Source: Vibrio salinus (GTDB lineage: Bacteria; Pseudomonadota; Gammaproteobacteria; Enterobacterales; Vibrionaceae). From it: a DNA stretch of 64,000 nt. The position numbers and the translations under genes were made by a program. How positions within the stretch are numbered: the first letter of the stretch is position 1; the number at the start of each line of letters is the position of its first letter. Location of the stretch: contig NZ_JAJSDZ010000010.1 of NCBI RefSeq assembly GCF_021272385.1, positions 1,116,001 to 1,180,000 on the forward strand. The letters run 5' to 3'. Under the pieces are notes generated by a model. That model had not been told where the DNA came from. It worked only from the letters and a program-made list of their open reading frames with translations, and did not search any database. Positions 43,746 through 58,830 of this stretch are shown piece after piece.

Positions 43746-44420
43746 GTGCGTGTTCTTGTTGTGGAAGATGAACTTCCTGTAAGTCATTGGATAAGCAGTA
43801 AATTGCATTCATATGGTCATAATTGCAAACTCTCAGATAATGGGAAACAAGCTCTTAATCTCATTAAAAATGAAGTTTTTGATGTTGTTTTACTGGACAA
43901 TATGCTTCCTGAAATGAATGGAATTGATGTTCTGAATCAGCTCGTTGATACACCACACCCTCCTATTCTAATTCTATCAGCAAACGATCAAATATCAGAC
44001 CGTATTCATGGGCTAAAGGCCGGCGCAGATGATTACATGGGTAAGCCCTTTGACTTTATTGAACTGTTACTCCGCCTTGAACGTCTCCATGACCGGACAA
44101 CGAAAATACAAAATACTCATGACATACATGTTAGTAATGTTGTTATTAATTTAGAGAAAAGAAACGTAACACTAGGGGGAAAAAAAGTTCTTCTTACAGG
44201 AAAGGAATTTGAACTTTTGCAAGTGTTAGCAGAGCACAAAGGTAAAGCTGTAACTCGGAATATGCTTTTAGAACGAGTCTGGGGCTACCAGTTTGACCCT
44301 CAGACAAACATCCTTGATGTTCATATGTCAAAGCTAAGAAACAAGCTCAACATCAACAAAGAAGAAACACCAATTATACGGACAATTCGTTCTGTCGGCT
44401 ACGCTTTAGGTTCAGAGTAA
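43746..44420 (+). CDS. OmpR/PhoB-family response regulator
   Basis: 224 residues. The receiver domain has acidic pair Glu7-Asp8, phosphoacceptor Asp51 (DVVLLDNMLPEMNG), Ser78 and Lys100 (MGKPFD; the usual 'VKPF' has Gly before Lys). The C-terminal winged helix is of the trans_reg_C type (LTGKEFELLQVLAEHKGKAVTRNMLLERVWGYQFDPQTNILDVHMSKLRNKL.. IIRTIRSVGYAL). GTG start with AAGGA seven bases upstream. The 3' end overlaps the kinase start by one base. Divergent from the flp operon and preceded by a Fur box, so it is a candidate regulator of the pilus or LEPR operons. Confidence 0.9.
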   Translation: MRVLVVEDELPVSHWISSKLHSYGHNCKLSDNGKQALNLIKNEVFDVVLLDNMLPEMNGIDVLNQLVDTPHPPILILSANDQISDRIHGLKAGADDYMGKPFDFIELLLRLERLHDRTTKIQNTHDIHVSNVVINLEKRNVTLGGKKVLLTGKEFELLQVLAEHKGKAVTRNMLLERVWGYQFDPQTNILDVHMSKLRNKLNINKEETPIIRTIRSVGYALGSE

Positions 44421-45793
44421 TGCCAGTCAGGTTAATTATTACCAGTAGCAGTTTTCGTCAGGCCGCTTATGTCGCTTTTTTTTGTCTGATTATTTCTTCG
44501 GCTTCAATTTTTATCAGCGATCACTTTCTGAAAGAAGTTATGCACACTCACCTCAAGAATATGATCCTGGATGATATCAAGGCTAAAAGCTCACTAAAAC
44601 TATTTGAAGATAGCCACAAACTTACCAACTATCTCACCAATCACGAACAGACTCAAAAATATGATGAATTGATCTCCTATACCTTTGATAAAAATAAGGC
44701 ATTACTTCATGGAGATACAAGTGTCTTAAACCTTGATGAACTTAAATCAATTTTCCAGCTGCCACGCAGACATATGGCTGAATTTACTTTTCATAAGAAA
44801 AAACACGTTCTTTTTGGGATTGTAGTTCCTCTTAGTGATGGAGGTTATTATTATGCTTCCTATAACATTTTACCAATGCTCAATAATACCCGGATCATAC
44901 CCCTTATGACAGGTGCTGTATTATTTACAGTATTACTATCAATACTAATTATAAGTCTACCATTCAGCATTAGAAACATGCTAAGAGTAAATAAGATCCT
45001 GGATGTAATGCATGAATATGCCAATGGAAAACATCAGGTTCGTGTCATGAACAATGGCTATAATGATGAATTTGGCCGATTGAGTGATGAAACAGACTTA
45101 TTATTAAGCCGTACAGAAAAGCTAATGGAACAGGTTCGTACAGCAAATAGTCATATTGCTCATGAACTCAAAACTCCCCTGACAAGAGTAAAAAATCGTT
45201 TAATTAATACTTCGGCAATAGTGGAAGGACAAGCATTGGATGAACTGGAAGAAGCAGCAAAAGAAATTGATCGGGTTTTATATCTATTCCGGGCGATAAT
45301 GAAATTGACGGAAGTAGAGAATGGCTTATTATCCCTTAAAAGAGAACCGATACATTCAGTCAAATTACTGCAAGATGTTACCGAATATTACGATCCTTTA
45401 ATTGAACAACACAACATAAGTTTGAAAATCTCTGTCAATAAAAACCATTCTTTTTATGCTGACTATGCTCTAATTCTTCAGGCTGTCGCAAATTTACTTG
45501 ATAATGCAATAAAATATGCACCGGACAGCTCCAAAATAATCTTACGCATAAACCAGCAACTTGATACCACTTACATTCAGATTATTGATGAAGGACCAGG
45601 TATCCCGGAAAATATGTTGTCACAAGTTAAAGAACGTTTTCAACGAATCAAAAGATCAGGAACCAAGGGATTCGGTCTTGGACTGCCCTTTGTACAGGCT
45701 GTCGCAGAACGACATCATGGAACACTATCTCTTGCTAACTGCACTCCTGGTCTGATGGCTACCATTACTTGTAGAAATGAATCTGTCACATAA
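44420..45793 (+). CDS. Membrane sensor histidine kinase
   Basis: 457 residues. TM1 (about 14-33), a periplasmic domain of roughly 135 residues without recognised fold, TM2 (about 160-182), HAMP, HisKA with His248 (NSHIAHELKTPLTRVKNRL) and HATPase_c with N box LLDNAIKYAPDS, G1 DEGPGIPE and G2 GTKGFGLGLPFV. Cognate partner of the upstream response regulator (TAATG overlap). Its last eight bases overlap the end of the opposing M50 gene, so there is no terminator space between the operons. Confidence 0.9.
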   Translation: MPVRLIITSSSFRQAAYVAFFCLIISSASIFISDHFLKEVMHTHLKNMILDDIKAKSSLKLFEDSHKLTNYLTNHEQTQKYDELISYTFDKNKALLHGDTSVLNLDELKSIFQLPRRHMAEFTFHKKKHVLFGIVVPLSDGGYYYASYNILPMLNNTRIIPLMTGAVLFTVLLSILIISLPFSIRNMLRVNKILDVMHEYANGKHQVRVMNNGYNDEFGRLSDETDLLLSRTEKLMEQVRTANSHIAHELKTPLTRVKNRLINTSAIVEGQALDELEEAAKEIDRVLYLFRAIMKLTEVENGLLSLKREPIHSVKLLQDVTEYYDPLIEQHNISLKISVNKNHSFYADYALILQAVANLLDNAIKYAPDSSKIILRINQQLDTTYIQIIDEGPGIPENMLSQVKERFQRIKRSGTKGFGLGLPFVQAVAERHHGTLSLANCTPGLMATITCRNESVT

Positions 45794-47900
45794 CTGATTC
45801 ACGAATTGCGACTTTTAGGACACCATTCCACATGCGATGAATAATACTTTGAGATTTACCTTTTATAACAATTGCTCCCTTTTTCTGGCTAAGGGGAGCA
45901 GATAACGAACTATCATCCGATAAATAAACCTGATAAATTGCCTGCTGCGGAACCGGAATACGCTTATGCCTACCCAATTTAGTAGCAACGGGTCCTCCAT
46001 ATGAAGAACTTAGCTCCGGATGAGCACTAAGGTCGGTAGAAACACCTCGAGCCAAACGGTCAATTGATAAAGAAAAACGGCTGAGATGAATATCATCAGG
46101 AATAAACGTTGCCTTATTTTGGCCACCAATACGGGCAATATCCCTTTCATTTATATAAGCTTCCGCAATAGTTCCTTCTTCACCGACAACTCTGCCCAAA
46201 ACGGTGCCTGCTGCCATCCAGCTTCCTGCAATATGTTCTTGTAAATCAACGACAACACCTGAATACGGTGCACGGATTGTCAGTTTTTCCTTGAGACTTT
46301 TCTGCTCATTCAGTCGGTATTTTATAATTGAAAATTCATCTCTGACAATTTGTAAATCGGCAGCTGCTTTTTTGTCAAAAGGATAAAAAAGGATTTGTTT
46401 CTCCAGCATACGGCTCTGTATTTTAAGTTCCTCTATCGCCTGATCTAATTTAGGAGATATCAGAATAAACATTAATTGTCCCTTAACTACCTTATCTCCG
46501 GCATTTACATACTGCCCTGTCAACATGGCATCTTCGGCAACAAACAATTGTTGTTGTTGCTTTGCCATCAACACCGCTGGAGCATAAACGGTATGGTGCC
46601 ACGGTACAAACAAGAATAAAAAGATGAAAAATACAAAAAGAAACAACCTCAGTATTTTTACATTCATATGAAATTCCTGATAATTTTTTAACCATATACG
46701 AACTTCCCGAACTAAAGGGAATATCAGAAAATAAGCAATTTCTACTGAAAATAACAGTATTCCAAGCGTTTTAAAAACCAAATGATAAACCGCTAATGCA
46801 ATGCTGAAATATAAAGTGCAACGATAAATCCATGTCGAAAGTGCATAAATTACAACCCCCCTGGTCCTCATCGCTGAAAAACGTTCAGGAGGTTTTGTCT
46901 TCCAGCCAAACATCCACTTTCTGATTGCCCAACGGGCCATAGCGAATGCTCTGGGCTGCATATTTGGCATATTGCACCAGTCAGAAAGAATAAAATAACC
47001 ATCAAAACGCATCAGTGGACTCAGATTAATTGATAGTGAAAGAAACAGAGATGTCGTTGATAATGTGAATAGCACACTTTTAACTATTCCTTCATCTGTA
47101 AAATTCCATATAAGTAAGGCCCAGGCAGCAATAACCATTTCAGTAAAAATACCCGCGGCTCCAATCATAATTCGATGTTGTCTGCTCTTCAGCCGCCAAG
47201 CCCCTGACACATCAGTATAAAGTACTGGCCAAAAAAGGATAAACATGATTCCAATTGTTGAAACACGGGCTCCATATCTCTTACAAGTAAATGCATGTCC
47301 TAGTTCATGCAGCACTTTTACTAAGATGATGGTTATTACCGATATGACAGCTCCCTCAGCAGAATACAAATAAGAGAAACCATGTATAAATGACTCCCAT
47401 TGTCTCGATGCCAGCCAGAACCCGGCGATGGCCGCCAACACACTAATTTGAAAAAAAAACCTGGACATAAAAGGTAAGGCAACCGGTAATGTTTTACCAA
47501 GCCATACATCGGGTTCACAAAGAGGAACTCTGAATGCCAGATGATACCGAAACAGCCACTTTAGCCAACTCTCACTTTCTCTTTGCTGCTCTTTCTGTCT
47601 TATTAATGTGTCAGCACTAGTTTGGACTAAATGATTATTTCGTAAAAAAAGTAAAAAAGAATTAAGTGTCTCCGGATTAGGGCGTAACGTTGTCGTTTCA
47701 TATATACGGCTAAGGGTTTTTTGTGGAGAGATTGACCAATTGGCAAGAAATTCCGTTTCAAGCCATCCCAACTGATAAAAACGCCCCCTGATTGGGTCTT
47801 CCAAAGTCCATCGGGAAGACCCATGTTCGCTTTCCGGTGCAGGGTATAATCGTAATTCTTGTCTTAGCAATGGTAATTCGTCATTAGGAGGGCTAATCAT
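45786..47900 (-). CDS. M50 (site-2) metalloprotease fused to HlyD/lipoyl domain, with PqqD-like N-terminus
   Basis: 704 residues. Residues about 15-95 (SSRWTLEDPIRGRFYQLGWLETEFLANW... TLNSFLLFLRNNHLV) resemble a PqqD-type winged-helix domain. A multi-spanning M50 domain follows: HELGH at 198-202 (LVKVLHELGHAFTCKRYGARV), the distal metal ligand in LSPLMRFDGYF (Asp300), and about eight to ten TM segments. After about residue 430 a HlyD-like part has a lipoyl motif (FVAEDAMLTGQYVNAGDKVVKGQLMFIL), a helical hairpin and IRAPYSGVVVDLQEHIAGSWMAAGTVLG. The start at 47900 overlaps the upstream adaptor by ATGA. Family members of this architecture occur beside TolC/HlyD genes. Predicted role: inner-membrane core that receives or trims the exported substrate. 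Mechanism unproven. Confidence 0.82.
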   Translation of the reverse strand: MISPPNDELPLLRQELRLYPAPESEHGSSRWTLEDPIRGRFYQLGWLETEFLANWSISPQKTLSRIYETTTLRPNPETLNSFLLFLRNNHLVQTSADTLIRQKEQQRESESWLKWLFRYHLAFRVPLCEPDVWLGKTLPVALPFMSRFFFQISVLAAIAGFWLASRQWESFIHGFSYLYSAEGAVISVITIILVKVLHELGHAFTCKRYGARVSTIGIMFILFWPVLYTDVSGAWRLKSRQHRIMIGAAGIFTEMVIAAWALLIWNFTDEGIVKSVLFTLSTTSLFLSLSINLSPLMRFDGYFILSDWCNMPNMQPRAFAMARWAIRKWMFGWKTKPPERFSAMRTRGVVIYALSTWIYRCTLYFSIALAVYHLVFKTLGILLFSVEIAYFLIFPLVREVRIWLKNYQEFHMNVKILRLFLFVFFIFLFLFVPWHHTVYAPAVLMAKQQQQLFVAEDAMLTGQYVNAGDKVVKGQLMFILISPKLDQAIEELKIQSRMLEKQILFYPFDKKAAADLQIVRDEFSIIKYRLNEQKSLKEKLTIRAPYSGVVVDLQEHIAGSWMAAGTVLGRVVGEEGTIAEAYINERDIARIGGQNKATFIPDDIHLSRFSLSIDRLARGVSTDLSAHPELSSSYGGPVATKLGRHKRIPVPQQAIYQVYLSDDSSLSAPLSQKKGAIVIKGKSQSIIHRMWNGVLKVAIRESVM

Positions 47901-49258
47901 AACGCTCCCCACCATAACCGCAGGTGAGAAATTGGTCTGCGGAAAAGATAATAAAATAACGTGGTTTTCTTCCCATAAAGCTTTGCAGTTCCTTTCAAAC
48001 CCATCTGGTGAATATGGTTATTTTCGACGAACATTCCTTTTAAAACATATGCATATTGTCCATCATTTTGTAGAGTCGAGTGATAAGCAATAGTTTTAAC
48101 TTCTGCTAAAATAGCCTCCGTTGGATTACTGTTGGGGAAAAAACGAATTTCATCGCCAGGCTTTAGCTCCATCATATTTTCAACAGCTAATTGAATCTCG
48201 AGTTGCGTTTTCTTGGGATCAGCAACAAACATAATCGGCTCCCCGAAATTAAGAGGCCGACCAATCCAATCTCCTTGATCATCAAATAATGAAATCCCAT
48301 CCTGAGGTGAGTATATACTTGTACGTTTAAGCTTTTTCTGCAAATAACTGACCTGGCTTTTCGCCAGTTTTTCACGTCCCTCTAAAATACTAATACTTGC
48401 TTTCCGGCTTCCATCATAGAACGATTGTTGTCTGGCCAACCTAAGTTCAGCACTGGATATAGCTAATCGTTGTCTTGCCTGAGCCAATTGATCATTCAAC
48501 TGACGGGCATCAAGTGTCATCAACAACTGCCCTTTTTTTACAAAATGATTAGGCCTGACATTAAGACGCTGCACCACTCCATTGATAGGCATTCGTACAA
48601 CAACTGATGATGAAGATATAATTTCTGAAGGAGCAAGCACTGACTGACGAACAGGCACAAACATCAGAGCGATACACAGAACAACAGCAGATACCCAAAA
48701 CTTTTTTCTTCCGGGCAGACTTAAACGTTTTGGCTTTTGACTGTTACGCAAAGCTATCCAGGTATGACCATAAGAATCACCCAGAAGATCCAGTAACCTC
48801 TCTTCTCGAATAGAAAGAGGCTCAGATCTGGATAAAAGTAACACACATACCAACTCACCATCGGTACCTTTTACCGGAAACCAGATAAGTACCTCAGACA
48901 AATGCTCTGCAAACATAGAACGGTCAAACGGTAACCACTCATGAGTAGCAAGGCGATGAATATCATTCTTCCGGGTTGTTTTCGCGATAGTAGAACAGTG
49001 CTTATTTAACCACTGAATCAATGGGGCATGGACATCCACCTCGGGTACACCAGAAGCACCCGTAATCCGATTCTGCAGCGGATCCCATAAAATCAGGTGA
49101 TCATAATCAACTAATGTTCGGGTCTGATTAAGCATTATGAACTGCAATTGGGGCAGGTTTGAAGCATTTCTGGCCTTCTTCTCCAGCAACAGCAAAGACA
49201 TTAATGCCGATTCAACAGGATTCCCTCTGGAAATCGCCCGCTCAGAGTCCATGTTCAT
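47897..49258 (-). CDS. HlyD-type adaptor with cytosolic GAF-like domain
   Basis: 453 residues from ATG 49258 (another ATG two codons later is equally possible). The first about 170 residues are cytosolic and look like a GAF fold (LPQLQFIMLNQTRTLVDYDHLILWDP... EVLIWFPVKGTDGELVCVLLLSRSEPLSIREERLLDLLGDSYGHTWIAL). One TM follows (KFWVSAVVLCIALMFVPV). The periplasmic part has a lipoyl motif (VVVRMPINGVVQRLNVRPNHFVKKGQLLMTLDARQLNDQLAQARQRL), a coiled hairpin and a beta-barrel. GAF-adaptor fusions suggest that assembly or opening responds to a cytosolic signal. It overlaps both neighbours, so the operon is tightly coupled. Confidence 0.8.
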   Translation of the reverse strand: MNMDSERAISRGNPVESALMSLLLLEKKARNASNLPQLQFIMLNQTRTLVDYDHLILWDPLQNRITGASGVPEVDVHAPLIQWLNKHCSTIAKTTRKNDIHRLATHEWLPFDRSMFAEHLSEVLIWFPVKGTDGELVCVLLLSRSEPLSIREERLLDLLGDSYGHTWIALRNSQKPKRLSLPGRKKFWVSAVVLCIALMFVPVRQSVLAPSEIISSSSVVVRMPINGVVQRLNVRPNHFVKKGQLLMTLDARQLNDQLAQARQRLAISSAELRLARQQSFYDGSRKASISILEGREKLAKSQVSYLQKKLKRTSIYSPQDGISLFDDQGDWIGRPLNFGEPIMFVADPKKTQLEIQLAVENMMELKPGDEIRFFPNSNPTEAILAEVKTIAYHSTLQNDGQYAYVLKGMFVENNHIHQMGLKGTAKLYGKKTTLFYYLFRRPISHLRLWWGAL

Positions 49259-50015
49259 GCTCGTTACGCTCTTTGTCAGAAACATTGAATACAGCGCTAC
49301 CACTCATTCCGGGCATTAACACTAAATTCTGATGGGCCTGAATTTCGCCAAAAACTTTATAAGATTGACTCAGTGCATCAATCACACTACCAAGACGAAT
49401 GATTTTGGCTTGGTAGGTATTACCAGTTTCATCCAGCGTAACCTGAAAAGTGTCTCCGACATTAACAAAATTAACCCAACGGGAAGGAATAATCAGTTCT
49501 ACCTCATACGACCGAGTACTGTATATCTCCAACAATTTTTTTCCTTCCGTTACATATTCACCAGACTCGACAAAACGCTGAGAAACCCTTCCGGAGAAAG
49601 GTGCTCTAATAATGCATCGCTTCACCATCAACTGAGCGACTTGACGTTCAGATGTCGCCATTTCAAGATCCGCTTCCGATTGACCTACTTCCATCACACT
49701 AATTGACTCCAGTTTATTCAATCGCTTGGCTATCTTGTATTTTTGACTAGCTGCTTTCTCTTTCGCTTTGGCGTGATCTAATCTCGCGCGGTAAACATCA
49801 CAGTTAACACCGGCAAGAACAACACCCTTATTAAACCGCTCACCTTCTTTCAAAGGATATATACTGAGTCTGCCAGCGATTTCACTGGACACAATAAGCT
49901 CCACCTTCGGCTTTAACTGAACCCGGATTGGAGGTGATGAGTCTATATCCTGTTCCTGAGCAGTCACACCAATAGCAAGTGTCATCCCTAACATATACAC
50001 AATGATTTTTAACAT
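49242..50015 (-). CDS. Short periplasmic adaptor (RND/HlyD type)
   Basis: 257 residues from ATG 50015, which gives a normal signal peptide (MLKIIVYMLGMTLAIGVTAQEQ). An upstream ATG at 50057 would overlap the TolC-like gene by 32 bases. Lipoyl halves: VELIVSSEIAGRLSIYPLKEGERFNKGVVLAGVNCDVYRARL and IIRAPFSGRVSQRFVESGEYVTEGKKLLEI. A beta-barrel region (FQVTLDETGNTYQAKIIRLGSVID) completes it. It has no membrane anchor after cleavage, so it is a soluble or lipid-free periplasmic bridge between the TolC-like channel and the two membrane-anchored adaptors. Confidence 0.82.
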   Translation of the reverse strand: MLKIIVYMLGMTLAIGVTAQEQDIDSSPPIRVQLKPKVELIVSSEIAGRLSIYPLKEGERFNKGVVLAGVNCDVYRARLDHAKAKEKAASQKYKIAKRLNKLESISVMEVGQSEADLEMATSERQVAQLMVKRCIIRAPFSGRVSQRFVESGEYVTEGKKLLEIYSTRSYEVELIIPSRWVNFVNVGDTFQVTLDETGNTYQAKIIRLGSVIDALSQSYKVFGEIQAHQNLVLMPGMSGSAVFNVSDKERNEHEHGL

Positions 50016-50025
50016 ACAGAACCGA

Positions 50026-51738
50026 TTACTCATATTTAGCAGAAGTTGTGTAATCACGAATAATGGTTGCTTTCAGTGAGCCAAGATTCTCAAATGTAGA
50101 GACATAATCTGGTGATTCGCTGATAACAGTTCGACTCTCCGGTATTGTTTTCTCTGATACAGAAGGTAAGAAGGTTTCTGTGACAAATGGCGGAATTTTT
50201 GTCAGCAATGGCGGTTGTTGTTGGCTAAGTTCTCCATTGAGTAACCTTACGCGCTTTTGTGCTATAGCCAGGGTCAAGGCTTTAATACTCTGATTCTGTA
50301 TTTGTTCAGGAAGCGGATCTAAACCAGCAGCCTGATAGATTGCACCTAATGAAGATTGTGCTTTCGCTAACTGTTGATCCCGGTGGCGAGTTATCAAAAC
50401 CGTTTCTGTTTTCATTCGGATCTGCTCCAACCTGGATTTCATACTACTTTGATAAGCATGCCGAGTCTGAGCTTCAATACCATTTTGTAACCTCAATAAC
50501 TCGGTCGCATTTTTATACTGATTCTGCGACTGATGATATTGGTGCCATGCAACATTAACTTGAGTCAAAACAGCCATACGAAGTGCCTGCCGGCGTATTT
50601 CTGCTACTTTTTCTTTTGCTTCTCCTGCATTCTTTACAGAACTGTAAGAAAACACATTCATCAAATTCCAGCTTACCTGCACACCAGCATCGGCCCAGTT
50701 CTGATTGACCAGGTAACTGTTACTATCATAATGAGTGCCAACAAACAGTGATGCTCCGGGTAAAAGATGGGTCAATTGTGACCGGGTTTCTAATACAGCA
50801 TTACGCGCTTTATAAACCTCTTCATTTATTTCAGGACGGTTAATCATTGCTAAAGACTCAAGATTCTCCAGACTATAATTAACTTTCGGTAACTTAGTGC
50901 CACTCTCTCCAATAGATGCCAATGTATAAGGCGTTGTAGGTGCTATGTTCATAAGTGTTGCCAACTGCGTTTTAGCATTGATTAATTCAGCGGACAAATT
51001 CTCAAGCTGACTAATCATTTTTAGCAGACTTTTCTGATATCTCATTGCATCAACCGGTGCGATAAGCCTCTCTATTTCAGTCTGACGTGCTTTTTTCAAT
51101 GCTTCTTTCGCCTCAGCCAATATTGCCTTAACTCCTGGTTCCAGATCTTGTGCTGTCGCAGCAGCCCAATATGCACTACGTACCTGTTGAATAATATCCG
51201 CAATAACAGCCCGACGTTGCTCGTTAGCCGCCAACACATTATTAGCCTGTATTCTGGCACCGAAATAACCAATACCAAAATCTAGGATATTCCATGATAG
51301 TGATAGATCGGCATTTCTTAATTTTTTATCCTGACTGGTTGATGGTTCCAGAGATTGTGTCCCGGTCTCAAGCGATTCACTTGATGACGCAGCAAGCTTG
51401 TCTCGGGTCCGCCAGCCAGCACTCGAAGCAACCGAGGGAAGTAATTCGTAACTTTTACTATCAAGCAAGCGCTTTTCAAGTGCTTTTCTCATCACGGCAA
51501 GACGTCCACTAAGGTTATATTTCACAGCACGGGCCATGGCTTCTTCAAGCGTCAAAGGGTGAGAAATTGTTTCTTGCTGACTAAACATTTCAGTCTGATC
51601 TTTAAGAAATATAGCGGATTTCTCTTCATCACTGATGTTATGTGGATGAATAGTACAACCAGCAATAAATAATGCGACGACACCTGTAACGGAAAGTTTC
51701 GCGGACATATTTTTTGAGCTACACGTTGTGTTTTTCAC
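50026..51738 (-). CDS. TolC-family outer-membrane lipoprotein
   Basis: 570 residues. The signal sequence ends with lipobox FIAGCT. Outer-membrane efflux repeats follow: LTLEEAMARAVKYNLSGRLAVMRKALEKRLLDSKSYELLPSVASSAGW, LSLSWNILDFGIGYFGARIQAN, MINRPEINEEVYKARNAVLETRSQL, VQVSWNLMNVF. A proline/serine-rich C-terminal tail of about 80 residues goes beyond the barrel-hairpin core. The start is a GTG at 51738 with a weak ribosome-binding site; an ATG ten codons later is possible. Outer-membrane exit duct for the export module encoded here. Confidence 0.87.
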   Translation of the reverse strand: MKNTTCSSKNMSAKLSVTGVVALFIAGCTIHPHNISDEEKSAIFLKDQTEMFSQQETISHPLTLEEAMARAVKYNLSGRLAVMRKALEKRLLDSKSYELLPSVASSAGWRTRDKLAASSSESLETGTQSLEPSTSQDKKLRNADLSLSWNILDFGIGYFGARIQANNVLAANEQRRAVIADIIQQVRSAYWAAATAQDLEPGVKAILAEAKEALKKARQTEIERLIAPVDAMRYQKSLLKMISQLENLSAELINAKTQLATLMNIAPTTPYTLASIGESGTKLPKVNYSLENLESLAMINRPEINEEVYKARNAVLETRSQLTHLLPGASLFVGTHYDSNSYLVNQNWADAGVQVSWNLMNVFSYSSVKNAGEAKEKVAEIRRQALRMAVLTQVNVAWHQYHQSQNQYKNATELLRLQNGIEAQTRHAYQSSMKSRLEQIRMKTETVLITRHRDQQLAKAQSSLGAIYQAAGLDPLPEQIQNQSIKALTLAIAQKRVRLLNGELSQQQPPLLTKIPPFVTETFLPSVSEKTIPESRTVISESPDYVSTFENLGSLKATIIRDYTTSAKYE

Positions 51739-51813: not shown

Positions 51814-54800
51814 TCAGTTTGCCCTCAATTCGGCTAACAACATTTGGGCTTCTGCTTTCAAGGCCCGAGAACTCGCTTCTCTAACCTGATGTTCAAGATT
51901 AGTCGTATCAGTTGCCTCAGTTGTACTTCCATGAATCTGATCTTTCAGATCGACATTGATTATCTTCGTTTCTCCGGAGGCATCCATGACAGTCACAGAA
52001 ATAGAAATGTGCCCCAGCCGATGTAACAAACCAGTGTCTATGGTGACATTCCCACGTTCCAGATTAAACTGAACACCTTCAGGGAGGGACAACCCATTGG
52101 TCAAAGAAACCTGAAGGATTTGTCTATCCTGTCCATGGAGCGCATTGAACAAATCGAACGAAACTGAATTATCCGTCATCTCCTGACCCTGAATTGTCGT
52201 GACTGTATCGGGTTGACGCAAATCGCTCAGCCAGTCATTTAACTGATAGAATGACGTATACGCATTATCCGACGTTTTTCCAGAGAGATAACCTGAAACA
52301 TAAGTAGTACTGTATGAGACATCTAAATTGGAGGAAGAAAAATCATTATTTGACAGTGATGCCAGCTTGGGTGTACTTAAATCAATAATATCTGTTGTAT
52401 CGTTAAGACGCTGTTGCAAAATATTCGGTTCTACCGGTAATTCATTTACTGATAAGCTAAAACGAAACGTCGTAGCAAGCCCCAAAGAGTTTGTCACGGT
52501 AAAAGTAAGCTCATAGCTTCCACTCTCGCTCACAATCCCTGATAATGTTAAGGTATCTGTATTAAAATTAAGGCCATCAGGCAAGCCTTTTACCAGCCAG
52601 GCTAAATCCAGCTTCTGAGGATCCGTGACACCATCCGTTGAAAATACATAATTGATGGCTTGATTTTCATAAAACGAAATATATGAGTCCGTTATATGAT
52701 TGACAGGAGTGGCATCAGCATCAGACAGAGCAATATTTAGTGTTAGATCAAATGAAATCTTTTCCCCGCCGCTGTTTGTCACAACAAAGTTAATAGTATA
52801 TTCAGCAGACTCAGTTGGTATTCCGGATATTGACAAATTTTCGGAATCAAAATTCAGTCCTTGAGGTAGTCCACTGACTTCCCAGCTCAAAGCGCGCTCC
52901 GCGGGATCACTTACAATCGTATCCGGTAAACTCTGACGGTATAATGTATCGGCTTTTCCATCGACAAGTGTCACATTGTCAAGATTAACAACCGGAGCCT
53001 CAACTACATCAAGAGTCAATGCCTGAGATACTTTTTCGCCACTGGGATCGTAAACTGTTAGCGTAAAGGAAATTTCCCCACCTTCCGCTAATGAACTACT
53101 GTCATAACGAATGTTCTGTAACAATTGCTCCAATTGAATCTCTGTCAGATTACCTGTAACTGAAAGTTTCAAAATACCGTTTTCTGAAGAAATGGATGCA
53201 ATAACTTCTTCGTTCAATATGACATTACCATTATCGTTAACAGTATAATCAGAATCCGAATCGATCGTAAAAATGTCATTAGTATTTGTATTACCTGCCC
53301 TTTCAACCGTCACCGTAAAACCGCTATAACTATCAGAATCGGGATCAAAAAGTGACATATCGGTAGCAATTAATGTTGACTCACCAAACGCCACACTCAG
53401 TACCGGCTGATTCGTCTGGTATAAGGTATAATTATGATCTCCGACAAAAAACTCACCCTGGCCCGTCACACTAATTGTGGCATCGGCAGAATCCAGTTGA
53501 GTACTATCAAGACGTGTAAGTGTTGTCCCATCGGTCAGTGTATAACGAAGTAATTCTTTTGAGCCTGTTGTGACATATATCGTTGTCCCATCATTTGATA
53601 CAGCAATATCATTGATATTATCGATATTTAAAGATGATATTTGAGTGAATGAATCTAAATCAAAATGATAAACAGTAACGCTGCTATCAGTGGCAGCATA
53701 TACATATTGCTCATCATCACTTACTTCCAAATCAATGATACTACTGCTGACAGACACGCTATTCCCATCAGAATCTGAATCTCCATCGCGAATGTAGCCA
53801 ACCCAGTCAATACCAGAATCAGTAATTTTATAAGCAATTAATGTTGGTGAGACAAAATTTGTTGTCACAAATACATAATTACCAGATGTAGTCACTGCAG
53901 TAGGACTATATATATAAGGTTCTGACCAGGCAGAACTAAACTTTAATAATCCCTCTTCATTCAGTTCTCCGGTAGAACTATCAATTGATACTGCAAAAAG
54001 GCTGCGGGAAGATGTAAAAAAAATGTAACTACCATCATCTGATAACGTCATATTTGACATGGCACCGAAGTTGGAGGTTAATTTATAATCGAGAGTAACA
54101 ACCTGCTCCTGGACTATTAGACCTTGCTCATCGACTGAATAAACCGTAATTTCACTGCTACTGTTATTTGCCATGATATATAAATGACTACCATCGCTGT
54201 CAGAGAGGATAGTGGTAGCTGATGACGCTTCAACGCTTATTGCATTAAGCGATAAAAAAGTCAATTCGCCGGACTCTGAATTCACATCATAAACGGCAAT
54301 CTTTCCATCATCTCCAATAATGAATAATCGTTCACCGGAATCACTGAGCGTGGCACTGGAAACATTTTCAATCTCCGTTAGATCATCGGTAGATGTTACT
54401 CTACTCAACACGCCCAATTCGTACAGGTCACCCAATGACATCTCTGGGGTATCATTTACATTAATATTATTAATTGTAACAACATAAGAATTAGAGCTTT
54501 GTTCGTAACTATCGGTAAGAGTGACTATCAGACTACTACTAGCGGGTAAAGCATCAGAATGATTTGTGTAATGGACGAGCGCAGCAACCGCATTCACATC
54601 TTCTGTGGTTGGTATCTGTTTATAGACCTCAGTAAATGTAATTTTCATTTCAGAATTTGTAACGTCTACTAAGGCAATAACCACACCATCTTTTGAAATC
54701 TGCCCATTAGAATAGGTATATTCATCACTATCGGCAAAAATAAGCTCTCCCCCCGAATCACTGGTATCAATGCTAACCGTCAGTGTTGCACCATCATAGT

Positions 54801-57117
54801 TACCCGCGCCTCCATTTCTTGAGTCCATTTCTGAGTCACTAATCGTAATACCTGTTAAAAATGCCTGTTCTCCACTATTTTCTGTATACGTAACAGCAGA
54901 AGTACTCTCACCAGAAATCATACTCAGCGCATTTTCTCCGGAATCAGCAACAACATGTATTGTACTACCACTTCCCAGACTGCTTGTCTCATTCTCACTG
55001 ACACCCAGTTCCTGAACAGAGAGATTGAATATTCGGTCCCCAGATTCATCAAGAGATGTATTACGGTACTGAATTGAATCAATAAGCTGTACTGTATCCT
55101 CAACAGAGCTATTAACGTATAAAATCACCGTCTTTACTCCATCATCCGTTTCAGTTATTTGATAATCAAAACCATTAACTGTTTTTTTCGTACCGGACGT
55201 CGTTGTAAGACTGATAATATTGCCATCCACATTCAACACATCATCATCGGAGCTTCCGGAGACTGTAACCATGACCTTCCAGATGGTCTGATCCGCTTCT
55301 ACCGTATCAATGCTGGTCTCTGAAAACAGCGATATATAATCACCGCCGGATGTGTAATCATCAATAACCGCTTTATACGTCATCGTTGGTGCGTCATTAA
55401 CATCAGTCAGATTTAGTGTTACATCGAGAGTATCCTGACTTCCGCTACCATCTTTGAGCGTAATGTTCAGAGTAACCGGAGAACCATTTGCATCAGGGTC
55501 ATCACTGGTATTTTTATAAGCAATCTGGCGTAGCACCTGTTGTGCCGTTGACTGAGAGACAGTATCCGTAAAGCTCACTGTCACACCATCGGATGATGAA
55601 CTCCAGGTTGCAATGACGCTTTCGTTTAATTCAATATTTCCGTCAATATTCAGGGTCAGACTATTGCCATCAATAAAAATATATAGGTCTGAAGAGTCAC
55701 TTTCTGTTCGGGCGATGGTAATACTTGCCCCATAATAGTTATCCAAAGCATCCAATACTGAATCACCGATAACGCCATCAGGAAGAACCACTACGGCATC
55801 ATTACCTTCAGTATAATTAACATCCGGAATTTCATAACTAAAAACGCTCAGACCACTTGTTGAAACGGCAATGATGTGCTCGCTACCTGAAGAATAAGCG
55901 ACACTCACTACCCCATGACTACTGGTTTGCGCAGACTCACTATTCATCGTAACCGAATCACCGAGCCTATGGTCAGTTTCAATAGAATAAGCATTGACAG
56001 ATGTCCCGAAGGTAAACAATGTGCTATCGTCTGAACTGACCATCAATGACGTGACATCGTCACTAACATCATAAGTTCCGGCTATCTGATAACTCCCAGC
56101 GGAATCACGATACATCGCCAACACTCTAGTCGTACCATCAGTACCGTTTTGAAAGGCAAAAACCTCACTGCCATCGGATGTACTCACAATCGAACTAATA
56201 AAATAAGTGTCCGTACCTTCAACCGTTCCTGAAAAAGACAGTGTTCCTTCAGAGCTTACAGCGAAGACACTCATGACAGAACTATCACCGGTACTACCGA
56301 CAAATAACATTCTGCCATCTTCAGAAAATGACATCTGGCCATTATTACTGACATCAGTGTTCTCACTGCCAGTATACGTTGCCAGTACGCTTAAATAACT
56401 GTCATTTCCTGACTGAAGAACATAAACACTATCCCCTTCTGTTAAATACAAATAACCATTGTTAGCCTTTAGATCAGAAGCAGAATCGGAACCGATTAAT
56501 GTTGAAACATCCTGTGATTGTTGATAAATGATTTTTCCTGTATCACCATCCCTGGTAAATGTAACAATGCTACTATCTGTTTCACTATAAACATAGATAA
56601 CAGACTCATCCGATGAAAGCGTAATCAAACTGGCACCACTCAGTCCATCATTGATGACACCATTACGATCAGCGTTATATACGGTTTCTACCAATGATAA
56701 GCTGCCATCATCACTCACAGAAAAAACACATACAACAGATGAATAAGCATTATGATAAGAACCAGAGGTAAAAGTCACTGAATAGGCATATTTACCATCA
56801 GATGACAGGACCAAATCATCAATATTCTTTGCTGTATTCGACCAATTACTATCGGCTAAATAATTCGTATAACTATCGCCTTCAATCGTATTTTGTTCGG
56901 TAGTGACCGTTATCGTAGTAGCCTCTCCTGATACGCTACTGTCGGCCGCCACATCTGATGTTGTCGTCTCAATTGTACTTGTCTCATTACCAGAGTTGCT
57001 GGCATCACTGCTATTGCCACTAACAGAATCTACCGTTGAAGTAACTGCAGCATCAAATACAATCCGTGGCTCAAGCGCAAATGCATGGAGCAATAAGTCC
57101 GAAGTAAACCCTTTCAT
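51814..57117 (-). CDS. 1767-residue acidic LEPR-motif secreted protein with two beta-propellers and cadherin/Ig-like domains
   Basis: Starts MKGFTSDLLLHAFALEPRIVFDAA: no classical signal peptide, but the LEPRxxFDAA N-terminal motif found on many giant non-classically exported proteins. Order: low-complexity Ser/Thr/Asp stretch (about 25-80), a first seven-bladed-type propeller (about 85-430; repeated SSDGKYAY..., SSDESVIYVY..., SEDGRMLFVGS), cadherin/VCBS-like repeats (about 430-890; VTLNITLKDGSGSQDTLDVTLNLTDVNDAPTMTY), a second propeller (about 895-1240; SDSGERLFIIGDDGK, SDDGSYIFFTS, SDDEQYVYAATDSSVTVY), another cadherin-like unit, and two dystroglycan/Ig-like units (LPQGLNFDSENLSISGIPTESAEYTI, LPDGLNFNTDTLTLSGIVSESGSYEL). 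Only one Cys; very rich in Ser and Asp; no RTX GGxGxD nonapeptides seen. Surface adhesin or matrix protein is the best guess. GGGA precedes the ATG. Confidence 0.8.
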   Translation of the reverse strand: MKGFTSDLLLHAFALEPRIVFDAAVTSTVDSVSGNSSDASNSGNETSTIETTTSDVAADSSVSGEATTITVTTEQNTIEGDSYTNYLADSNWSNTAKNIDDLVLSSDGKYAYSVTFTSGSYHNAYSSVVCVFSVSDDGSLSLVETVYNADRNGVINDGLSGASLITLSSDESVIYVYSETDSSIVTFTRDGDTGKIIYQQSQDVSTLIGSDSASDLKANNGYLYLTEGDSVYVLQSGNDSYLSVLATYTGSENTDVSNNGQMSFSEDGRMLFVGSTGDSSVMSVFAVSSEGTLSFSGTVEGTDTYFISSIVSTSDGSEVFAFQNGTDGTTRVLAMYRDSAGSYQIAGTYDVSDDVTSLMVSSDDSTLFTFGTSVNAYSIETDHRLGDSVTMNSESAQTSSHGVVSVAYSSGSEHIIAVSTSGLSVFSYEIPDVNYTEGNDAVVVLPDGVIGDSVLDALDNYYGASITIARTESDSSDLYIFIDGNSLTLNIDGNIELNESVIATWSSSSDGVTVSFTDTVSQSTAQQVLRQIAYKNTSDDPDANGSPVTLNITLKDGSGSQDTLDVTLNLTDVNDAPTMTYKAVIDDYTSGGDYISLFSETSIDTVEADQTIWKVMVTVSGSSDDDVLNVDGNIISLTTTSGTKKTVNGFDYQITETDDGVKTVILYVNSSVEDTVQLIDSIQYRNTSLDESGDRIFNLSVQELGVSENETSSLGSGSTIHVVADSGENALSMISGESTSAVTYTENSGEQAFLTGITISDSEMDSRNGGAGNYDGATLTVSIDTSDSGGELIFADSDEYTYSNGQISKDGVVIALVDVTNSEMKITFTEVYKQIPTTEDVNAVAALVHYTNHSDALPASSSLIVTLTDSYEQSSNSYVVTINNINVNDTPEMSLGDLYELGVLSRVTSTDDLTEIENVSSATLSDSGERLFIIGDDGKIAVYDVNSESGELTFLSLNAISVEASSATTILSDSDGSHLYIMANNSSSEITVYSVDEQGLIVQEQVVTLDYKLTSNFGAMSNMTLSDDGSYIFFTSSRSLFAVSIDSSTGELNEEGLLKFSSAWSEPYIYSPTAVTTSGNYVFVTTNFVSPTLIAYKITDSGIDWVGYIRDGDSDSDGNSVSVSSSIIDLEVSDDEQYVYAATDSSVTVYHFDLDSFTQISSLNIDNINDIAVSNDGTTIYVTTGSKELLRYTLTDGTTLTRLDSTQLDSADATISVTGQGEFFVGDHNYTLYQTNQPVLSVAFGESTLIATDMSLFDPDSDSYSGFTVTVERAGNTNTNDIFTIDSDSDYTVNDNGNVILNEEVIASISSENGILKLSVTGNLTEIQLEQLLQNIRYDSSSLAEGGEISFTLTVYDPSGEKVSQALTLDVVEAPVVNLDNVTLVDGKADTLYRQSLPDTIVSDPAERALSWEVSGLPQGLNFDSENLSISGIPTESAEYTINFVVTNSGGEKISFDLTLNIALSDADATPVNHITDSYISFYENQAINYVFSTDGVTDPQKLDLAWLVKGLPDGLNFNTDTLTLSGIVSESGSYELTFTVTNSLGLATTFRFSLSVNELPVEPNILQQRLNDTTDIIDLSTPKLASLSNNDFSSSNLDVSYSTTYVSGYLSGKTSDNAYTSFYQLNDWLSDLRQPDTVTTIQGQEMTDNSVSFDLFNALHGQDRQILQVSLTNGLSLPEGVQFNLERGNVTIDTGLLHRLGHISISVTVMDASGETKIINVDLKDQIHGSTTEATDTTNLEHQVREASSRALKAEAQMLLAELRAN

Positions 57118-57151: not shown

Positions 57152-58759
57152 TCACTCTATTAGACGTACGTAGTAATTCTTCTGAACATCTTTTGCAATG
57201 TTCTCTAATACGTCCTCTAACTGCGTTTCACCATCAGAAAAACCACTTGCACTGACAAAATGTATGTTATCTTCACCCTCAGTACATATCTTCATTCCCG
57301 GAGCCATATATTGTTCATAAGTTTTTCTTCCTGTGTCTGCGGTATTTCCAGATCTGACACCAACAAAATACACGTGCAGATTCCGACGGCGAAAGCTTTT
57401 GCACAAGCTAATAAACCGCTGTTTGGCGATAGACTTCCTGTTTGCTCCGCTTGCTAATTCACTCTCATAGGCCTGCTGCCGAAAATTATAACGGTCTGTG
57501 TCTAACTGGCTTCCTTTAATATGAGCCAGCATCACAATCGCCTTATAATTCTGGTCATCTGAACTAAAGTCTAAAGGTAATTCAAGATCACCCCAGCCAG
57601 AGTTACCACGCATTCGGGGTGATAGTGTTACTGCCGCCCATCCCATCGCAATGGCGTAATTCACATTATTTCTGGGCGTCATCATATTCAAACGCTCACT
57701 AATTTTGTTCAGATTGTTCGTTAAAGGTAAAACAGGTGTATTAGGACATCCTTTATCCGCAAGCATCCAGCGGGTTCCTATTGCTCCGGAGAACTCAGGC
57801 CATAAATATGGATTCGGTCCCACCCATGATATTGGTGTTGCTCCGGGAGAACCAAATGAGGGATCGGCAACTCGATAAAAAAGACTGAACTGCTCATTTA
57901 CCGAACGATCCCAGTAATAATTTTCATCTTTATCCAATCCTCGGTATAAACATAACAGATGTGCGACTCTGTCCGGAATCCGGGTATCATTCAGGTGGCT
58001 TGCCTTGCCAGAATTAAACAATGATCTTAATTCAGGTGGTTTCAAATTAGTTCCTGACCACTGCTGAATGCGTGCAGGATGATCATTATCATAAACATTC
58101 ACTGCCGAACTGTATGGAACCAATGAAAGCCATCGATATCCGTTGCTGTCAGATTGACTATCATCACTAATAAAATCTTGCGCGAACTCATTCGCCAACC
58201 GTTTTAGAGCAGAAATATCACTATTACTTTCATAATAAGAATTCGGCAACATCAGGGCGACTTCGGTAGGACGACTCATGACCTCCACTGTAGACGAAAT
58301 CACTTCCTCTTTTGACTCAGCCCCCAGAACGGAAGATTCCGCAGTAACACGAACCGATACTTTGTAAGTCACCGACCCGGAATCTGCTTCTGATTTAACA
58401 ACCTGAACAGAAGATGTATCAACCTGATCTGCCAATTCGCTATCTAAGCCAAGATTTGACAAAATATAACCGCTCGCCAGTGCTCTCAGAGCTTCGTTAT
58501 CATCACCATTTGTGTTTGCCATTTCTTTGTACCCGATGGCCAGTGCAGCCGTGTCGGTTGCTCGTTTTACCTGTGAAATACTGTCCACAGTTCGTGTTGT
58601 ATCCAAAGAATAAGCAACGGCAGTTAAAGCACCGGCAAATACAAGAACGGTAAGCGGCAGAACCGAACCCGACTGCTCATTACAAAAGCGTCGCCACAAA
58701 CATTCGGACATTGCCTGGATATTTTTTCCGGAACGGTTAATTGCATCTAATAAAGTCAT
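57152..58759 (-). CDS. tadG: TadG-like pilus protein with degenerate VWA domain
   Basis: 535 residues from ATG 58759 (the promoter predicted at 58802-58830 and the lack of similarity favour this over a TTG at 58807). The N-terminus contains NEQSG-SVLPLTVLVFAGALTAVAYSLDTTRTVDSISQVKRATDTAALAIGYK, the TadG/TadE Flp-pilus-assembly helix. The following region is VWA-like (EVALMLPNSYYESNSDISALKRLANEFAQDFI; LHVYFVGVRSGN), but the metal site DxSxS is replaced by LPNSY. tadF's expected partner is thus found 15 kb from the main tad operon, as the first gene of the LEPR export operon, 34 bases before the LEPR gene. Confidence 0.8.
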   Translation of the reverse strand: MTLLDAINRSGKNIQAMSECLWRRFCNEQSGSVLPLTVLVFAGALTAVAYSLDTTRTVDSISQVKRATDTAALAIGYKEMANTNGDDNEALRALASGYILSNLGLDSELADQVDTSSVQVVKSEADSGSVTYKVSVRVTAESSVLGAESKEEVISSTVEVMSRPTEVALMLPNSYYESNSDISALKRLANEFAQDFISDDSQSDSNGYRWLSLVPYSSAVNVYDNDHPARIQQWSGTNLKPPELRSLFNSGKASHLNDTRIPDRVAHLLCLYRGLDKDENYYWDRSVNEQFSLFYRVADPSFGSPGATPISWVGPNPYLWPEFSGAIGTRWMLADKGCPNTPVLPLTNNLNKISERLNMMTPRNNVNYAIAMGWAAVTLSPRMRGNSGWGDLELPLDFSSDDQNYKAIVMLAHIKGSQLDTDRYNFRQQAYESELASGANRKSIAKQRFISLCKSFRRRNLHVYFVGVRSGNTADTGRKTYEQYMAPGMKICTEGEDNIHFVSASGFSDGETQLEDVLENIAKDVQKNYYVRLIE

Positions 58760-58801
58760 TAGTACGAAAATACATCGGTTATCGGGGAACTTCCCATTCA
58801 C

Positions 58802-58830
58802 TAACAATAATGATGATGATAACCATTCTC
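58802..58830 (-). promoter_or_regulatory. Promoter of the tadG-LEPR operon overlapped by a Fur box
   Basis: On the minus strand TTGAGA (58830-58825), a 17-base spacer, TATTGT (58807-58802). On the plus strand GATGATGATAACCATTCTC (58812-58830) matches the classical 19-base Fur box GATAATGATAATCATTATC at 16 positions. Fur binding would block the whole promoter. Confidence 0.7.

Follow-up and report, generated by a model that had tools for sequence, protein, structure and literature searches.

Which protein recognises the conserved LEPR motif near the N terminus of the giant protein encoded at this locus? The window analysed here, i.e. the whole stretch of 64,000 nucleotides from Vibrio salinus, carries the giant gene next to a cassette of channel, adaptor and protease genes. 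The best candidate for recognising the proposed export tag of the giant protein is a predicted RiPP recognition element (RRE) at the N terminus of the cassette's M50-HlyD protein. In the accessible portion of the open PubMed Central literature on LEPR-type domains, a reader of the LEPR mark was not found, and the same portion gave no description of a LEPR receptor or of an M50-RRE/HlyD/TolC cassette. The features concerned are as follows.

45786..47915, minus strand: M50 intramembrane metalloprotease fused to a HlyD/MacA-type adaptor, 709 aa (Pfam, model, Foldseek matches to MacA/MexA)
47625..47870, minus strand: predicted domain of the PqqD/RRE type in the M50-HlyD protein, residues 16-97 (hhalign, AlphaFold model, structure matches, residue counts)
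47295..47309, minus strand: zinc motif HELGH, residues 203-207 (H203, E204 and H207 invariant in 108/108)
47001..47027, minus strand: NLSPLMRFD, the second motif of the active site, residues 297-305 (invariant in 108/108: N297 and D305)
46608..47462, minus strand: seven predicted transmembrane helices, residues 152-436, N terminus inside and HlyD part outside (hydropathy and charge, model)
45846..46598, minus strand: periplasmic HlyD/MacA-type adaptor part, residues 440-690 (Pfam; Foldseek, MacA best E 2.5e-14)
47897..49303, minus strand: second adaptor (HlyD_3), 468 aa, whose N-terminal part, before the membrane anchor, is GAF-like
49242..50057, minus strand: periplasmic adaptor of the HlyD/RND type, 271 aa; its N-terminal stretch is hydrophobic
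50026..51738, minus strand: TolC-like outer-membrane efflux protein, 570 aa (Pfam OEP, E 7.8e-26)
51814..57117, minus strand: giant LEPR protein of 1767 aa, the proposed export substrate, with putative Ig and beta-propeller domains
57052..57075, minus strand: LEPR motif LEPRIVFD in the giant protein (residues 15-22), candidate ligand of the RRE

The cassette and its relatives

Relatives of the M50-HlyD protein were found at E<=1e-15 in 23 of the 295 order genomes and in 58 of the 369 class genomes, the own genome being counted in both samples. A contig scan with the single M50-HlyD protein returned no relative; from the scan with the family alignment the best 80 of at least 579 relatives were taken, and the loci of these best 80 include Marinomonas, Pseudomonas, Azospirillum, Pelagibacteraceae, Nitrospira and Burkholderia. 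The relatives fall in two branches, the distant one mostly at 23-31% identity. Among the fetched loci, the closer branch was defined by more than 280 phmmer bits (108 loci), of which 98 remain at 95% identity and two (L073 and L113) are the same in sequence. In the genome sample it was defined by E<=1e-75 (19 genomes), a cut picked after the search results had been viewed. The fragments G479 and G421 scored into the distant group, though G479 is 39% identical, and G628 stands in both.

Within 12 kb of the M50 gene and on the same strand, relatives of the GAF-HlyD adaptor were found at 103, of the HlyD adaptor at 87 and of the TolC-like protein at 67 of the 108 closer-branch loci, and a single-linkage cluster of giant proteins was present at 88/108. 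Because many locus stretches end early, at contig or stretch ends, these cassette-gene counts are lower bounds. In the window, the frames of the four cassette genes overlap at their longest starts (47897-47915, 49242-49303 and 50026-50057), which suggests translational coupling.

Two neighbouring stretches were also noted. A response regulator and a histidine kinase (43746-45793) lie tail to tail with the M50 gene, with an 8-base overlap at its end; the response-regulator cluster occurs near 11/108 related loci. Just upstream of the giant gene, a 551-residue protein (57152-58807) has a TadG/pilus-assembly look by eye and gave no Pfam match.

As in type 1 secretion (HlyB-HlyD-TolC), HlyD adaptors and a TolC-type channel stand beside a giant repeat protein. 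However, a linked ABC transporter, dedicated as in such systems, was not found: the 300 bases next to the M50 gene contained a same-strand ABC ATPase signature at 0/108 closer-branch loci, and the examined locus DNA as a whole at 11/108. An ordinary type 1 system with a linked ABC ATPase was therefore rejected; an unlinked transporter may be encoded elsewhere. Two further differences are that the inner-membrane position is filled by an RRE-bearing M50 protease, and that the conserved motif lies at the N terminus.

The M50-HlyD protein and its predicted topology

In the 709-aa protein, Peptidase_M50 and HlyD_3 both scored above the Pfam cut-off, and the full-length model had a pLDDT of 89.4. 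The HExxH motif and the second Asp motif lie in predicted membrane helices, as in M50 proteases of the site-2 type. The seven transmembrane helices were counted by eye from the model and from family-averaged hydropathy. Since the C-terminal MacA/MexA-type adaptor belongs in the periplasm, the N-terminal RRE is predicted to be cytosolic, a placement obtained from hydropathy, charge and the full-length model taken together. The first-pass annotation had already put the domain on the cytosolic side, and the N-in, HlyD-out arrangement is consistent with this. It should also be mentioned that an extra hydropathy peak near residues 223-227 would, if it were a membrane helix, flip the N terminus of the protein. 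In the model this peak is a beta hairpin, and the loops flanking it both carry positive charge, which fits a cytosolic position. At the C terminus, the family carries a conserved RESGF-like stretch (RESVM in the window protein), modelled as a helix end after the adaptor part.

The own genome contains one M50 of this family. When 56 members (the window protein and 55 relatives) were compared with the NCBIfam M50 models, the nearest named ones were the daptide protease (56/56 members) and the epipeptide protease (51/56). The window protein scored 164.6 bits against the daptide HExxH model NF041824, whose curated cut-off is 300, and 38.1 bits against the YydH/LiaK epipeptide model NF058609, whose curated cut-off is 225; hence the equivalog score of the daptide and epipeptide proteases was not reached. 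RiPP M50 proteases (NF041824, NF058609; EpeP, TglG) have the same zinc motif as the window protein, and EpeP and TglG act in RiPP maturation according to a review (PMC10885120). In contrast to them, the window protein has an N-terminal RRE and a C-terminal HlyD part, and its substrate is probably the giant protein.

Evidence for a PqqD/RRE-type fold

By structure prediction and profile comparison, residues 16-97 of the M50-HlyD protein are a PqqD-type RRE. The first-pass annotation had likened the segment SSRWTLEDPIRGRFYQLG...FLANW, which corresponds to residues 33-60 of the 709-aa ORF (within 47600-47900), to the PqqD fold. This likeness was borne out by the family profile (93.5%) and by RREs as top structural matches, whereas single-sequence scans against Pfam and NCBIfam gave no PqqD match. 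Neither the M50-HlyD protein nor its N-terminus matched PF05402 at the gathering score, which is a detection threshold and not a structural feature. The whole own genome gave 0 PF05402 matches, and searches of PDB sequences gave 0 matches by phmmer and 0 with a profile. As the PqqD similarity was seen only with the family profile, the single sequence alone would leave the PqqD claim looking unsupported.

The profile was built from closer-branch N-termini (109 sequences, 95 after filtering) and was compared by hhalign with a PF05402 set of 29 Pfam PqqD finds (30 loci were fetched, of which L222 was omitted). The two matched with a probability of 93.5 and an E of 2.4e-7 over 83 columns. This similarity exceeds chance: the reversed profile gave 0.4%, 30 column shuffles gave at most 1.9%, and the single-sequence controls (response-regulator C-terminal domain, HlyD part and GAF-like part) gave 0.2-1.3%. 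The distant-branch N-terminal profile, from which L111 was omitted, matched PqqD with 95.7%, and the profiles of the two branches matched each other with 97.1%. In three distant M50 relatives (G433, G421 and G379) a match above the PF05402 cut-off lies directly before the M50 match or within it. In a Pfam scan of 76 family N-termini, PqqD was found in 4 members and seven other families in 1 each.

The AlphaFold2 model of the N-terminal domain, made from 56 aligned sequences, had a pLDDT of 89.6. Its strands (13-17, 26-31 and 36-40) are followed by helices at 42-49, 55-65 and 72-84 and by a fourth helix at 92-105, so that the three-stranded sheet and then three helices of an RRE are present. 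The nearest solved structures in VIA-align were RREs as well: ranks 1 to 3 were the lasso B1 RREs 6JX3, 5V1U and 5V1V (Z 10.4-10.8), all solved with a leader peptide, and rank 4 was PqqD 5SXY (Z 8.8). The next rows, at Z 6-7.5, hold RiPP enzymes including the heterocyclase of 4V1V, TruD, ThcOx and MccB, and non-RiPP rows include GdmN (7.2) and MINA53 (6.2); a Z under 8 may reflect merely a common arrangement. In Foldseek, the first five PDB rows were three chains of the leader-bound lasso RRE TbiB1 and the sactipeptide enzyme of 5WHY/5WGG, with probabilities from 1.00 to 0.94. The best row had an E of 7.8e-3 at probability 1.00, and no PDB match of the domain had an E below 0.001.

RREs and helix-turn-helix domains are structurally homologous, and RREs are incompletely found by PF05402, as stated in the RRE-Finder paper (PMC7470986). 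A DNA-binding winged helix-turn-helix, belonging to a membrane-bound regulator and PqqD-like in look only, could in principle give a similar picture, and the ToxR DNA-binding domain is indeed among the VIA-align rows. We nevertheless consider such a domain very improbable here. The ToxR domain reached a Z of 3.7 against 8.8-10.8 for the RREs, and the response-regulator DNA-binding domain, as a single sequence, had a profile probability of 0.3%; both the structure ranking and the hhalign control thus disfavour DNA binding.

The same paper (PMC7470986) describes RREs that may be vestigial, and the protease part of the window protein is nearest, among the named models, to RiPP maturation proteases. 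Therefore one might take the domain for a vestigial or purely structural remnant of a RiPP-protease ancestor that no longer binds peptides. This appears quite improbable to us, because the conservation is unlike decay: R18 and D40 are invariant in 108/108 closer-branch relatives, and none of the 120 family members used has fewer than 90 residues in the stretch aligned to residues 12-140. W36 is kept in 107/108.

Compared with known RREs, i.e. PqqD (PF05402; 5SXY) and the lasso B1 RREs (TbiB1 5V1U/5V1V; 6JX3), model residues 2-90 have the same fold and strand-helix order, at the Z values given above. Unlike these, the window RRE forms one protein with a membrane protease and an adaptor part, and the ligand proposed for it is the N-terminal end of a giant protein. 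Inspection by eye of the 25 commonest neighbour clusters listed revealed no enzyme of peptide modification, and on this basis a RiPP modification cluster was rejected. PqqD-M50 fusions may already figure in domain databases.

The LEPR motif as candidate ligand

The motif was searched as L[ES].[RK]hhh[DS] within residues 1-100 of ORFs that have a defined start and are at least 300 residues long. It was found in 43/1117 ORFs from 120 loci, while the reversed motif gave 0, and no copy was found beyond residue 100 in 663,735 residues. For the alignment, five of the 43 regions (L141 with two, L144, L106 and L111) were left out and the window's was added; in the resulting 39 regions L, E, R and D are invariant. 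Counted by locus, 39 have a motif protein, and 35 of these are non-redundant. Among the 48 loci with a defined-start giant ORF on the M50 strand, the regex motif was present in 35; two of the other 13 (L180 and L088) carry variants that were recognised by eye and escape the regex, and the rest look unrelated.

Like the LEPR-XLL/LEPR-8K type (NF012209), the motif is short and N-terminal in very large proteins, and the two types differ in sequence (LEPR..FDAA for the window type, LEPR.LLSAD for NF012209). NF012209 matches 35/39 motif regions at E<=0.1. The window copy reached 15.2 bits, under the cut-off of 17, and the own genome has one LEPR match. As a side observation on L276, L277, G566, G433, G434 and G380, distant-branch genomes have frames of ~8,600-14,100 residues with NF012209 matches on the M50 contig, and at two loci of the window's genus frames of more than 5,500 residues begin with a EQLEPRLLLSAD stretch. 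Proteins with EQLEPRLLLSAD belong to distant-branch loci of this genus (G015 and G022).

The hydrophobicity of the LEPR region had a median of 1.31 in 43 proteins against 1.87 for the N-termini of 81 adaptors, and the window values were 1.13 and 2.11, respectively; a few LEPR proteins reach 1.7-2.1. Being mostly less hydrophobic than the adaptor N-termini, the LEPR region thus looks unlike a typical Sec signal.

M50 and LEPR occur together across genomes. Among the 369 class genomes, own included, 39 have the M50 and either LEPR type, 19 the M50 only, 8 LEPR only and 303 neither; for M50 (58 genomes) against LEPR (47), this corresponds to p=2.4e-30 with kinship ignored. The 19/58 M50 genomes without a LEPR match and the 8/47 LEPR genomes without M50 have to be read with the fact that some assemblies are incomplete. 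Each M50 branch associates mainly with its own LEPR variant. For the closer branch the partner is LEPR..FDGA, in 12/19 genomes (p=7.5e-14); for the distant branch it is LEPR-XLL, in 26/40 (p=5.5e-23), kinship again being ignored. For the crossed pairings, the distant branch with FDGA gave 3/40 (p=0.43) and the closer branch with XLL 5/19 (p=0.022), and in four of these five (G446, G550, G604 and G644) the only listed XLL match coincides with the FDGA match. M50 neighbours supplied the sequences of the FDGA profile, and five of its rows came from sampled genomes (own, G628, G648, G488 and G631). Without these five genomes, FDGA is still present in 7/14 genomes of the closer branch (p=3.4e-8), and for M50 against LEPR of either type p is 1.1e-26. 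NF012209 is NCBI's own model and hence free of this neighbour bias.

Because a shared operon explains co-occurrence, the same pattern would be expected if another cassette protein read LEPR. The RRE-fold domain would then read some other part of the cassette, e.g. the GAF-like domain of the 468-aa adaptor, while that partner read LEPR. The GAF-HlyD adaptor is, at the 103 loci counted above, nearly as constant as the M50, and part of it likewise precedes the membrane anchor; Pfam GAF was found in 5/26 aligned N-termini of the adaptor family, the window adaptor itself having no Pfam GAF match. This part is possibly a cytosolic sensor or docking part. Over 38 pairs, the distance correlation with LEPR was highest for the RRE (r 0.512; partial 0.223, p 0.003), with the adaptor parts close (partial 0.19 and 0.18, p 0.022 and 0.007), so that the correlation does not set the RRE apart from them. 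Even so, the structurally nearest RREs were solved with leader peptides, and the leader-like conserved peptide of this locus is LEPR; we thus find a LEPR-reading partner rather unlikely.

The preferred reading is that the RRE serves as the cytosolic receptor of the export cassette and binds the LEPR segment, with cleavage and export through the conduit, and we rate it as fairly probable. It fits the gene association, the branch-specific pairing, the leader-like position of LEPR and the RRE fold; that the LEPR motif is the ligand we infer from the association. The first-pass annotation had likewise suggested that the domain could recognise LEPR and dock the protein for export. For a cytosolic RRE ahead of a RiPP-like protease, beside a protein whose N-terminal peptide is conserved, the best reading is leader recognition followed by cleavage and export. 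RREs bind leader peptides as an added beta strand. The domain would bind the giant protein at its LEPR segment, close to the N terminus, probably in the same manner, and would bring this segment to the protease active site near the cytosolic face. There the LEPR leader may be cut by the M50 protease, and the giant chain would be passed to a conduit of three HlyD-type parts and the TolC-like channel. We infer these steps, i.e. binding, LEPR cleavage and export, from the genes and models described above. On a wider scale, the family may represent a widespread ABC-unlinked export route of Gram-negative bacteria, in which an RRE has been repurposed as a cytosolic LEPR receptor fused to a leader protease and adaptor, and in which the two branches pair with their own LEPR variants; for this broader proposal we see the balance as even.

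Some of the largest bacterial proteins, with open frames of up to ~14,000 residues, bear N-terminal domains of the LEPR type. Export by such a cassette, in which no ABC ATPase is linked, would raise the question of how chains thousands of residues long get through the inner membrane. The cytosolic RRE, being part of the same protein as the cassette's protease, offers a concrete candidate receptor, a domain of ~100 residues. If this is true, RREs would extend from peptide-product pathways to protein export.
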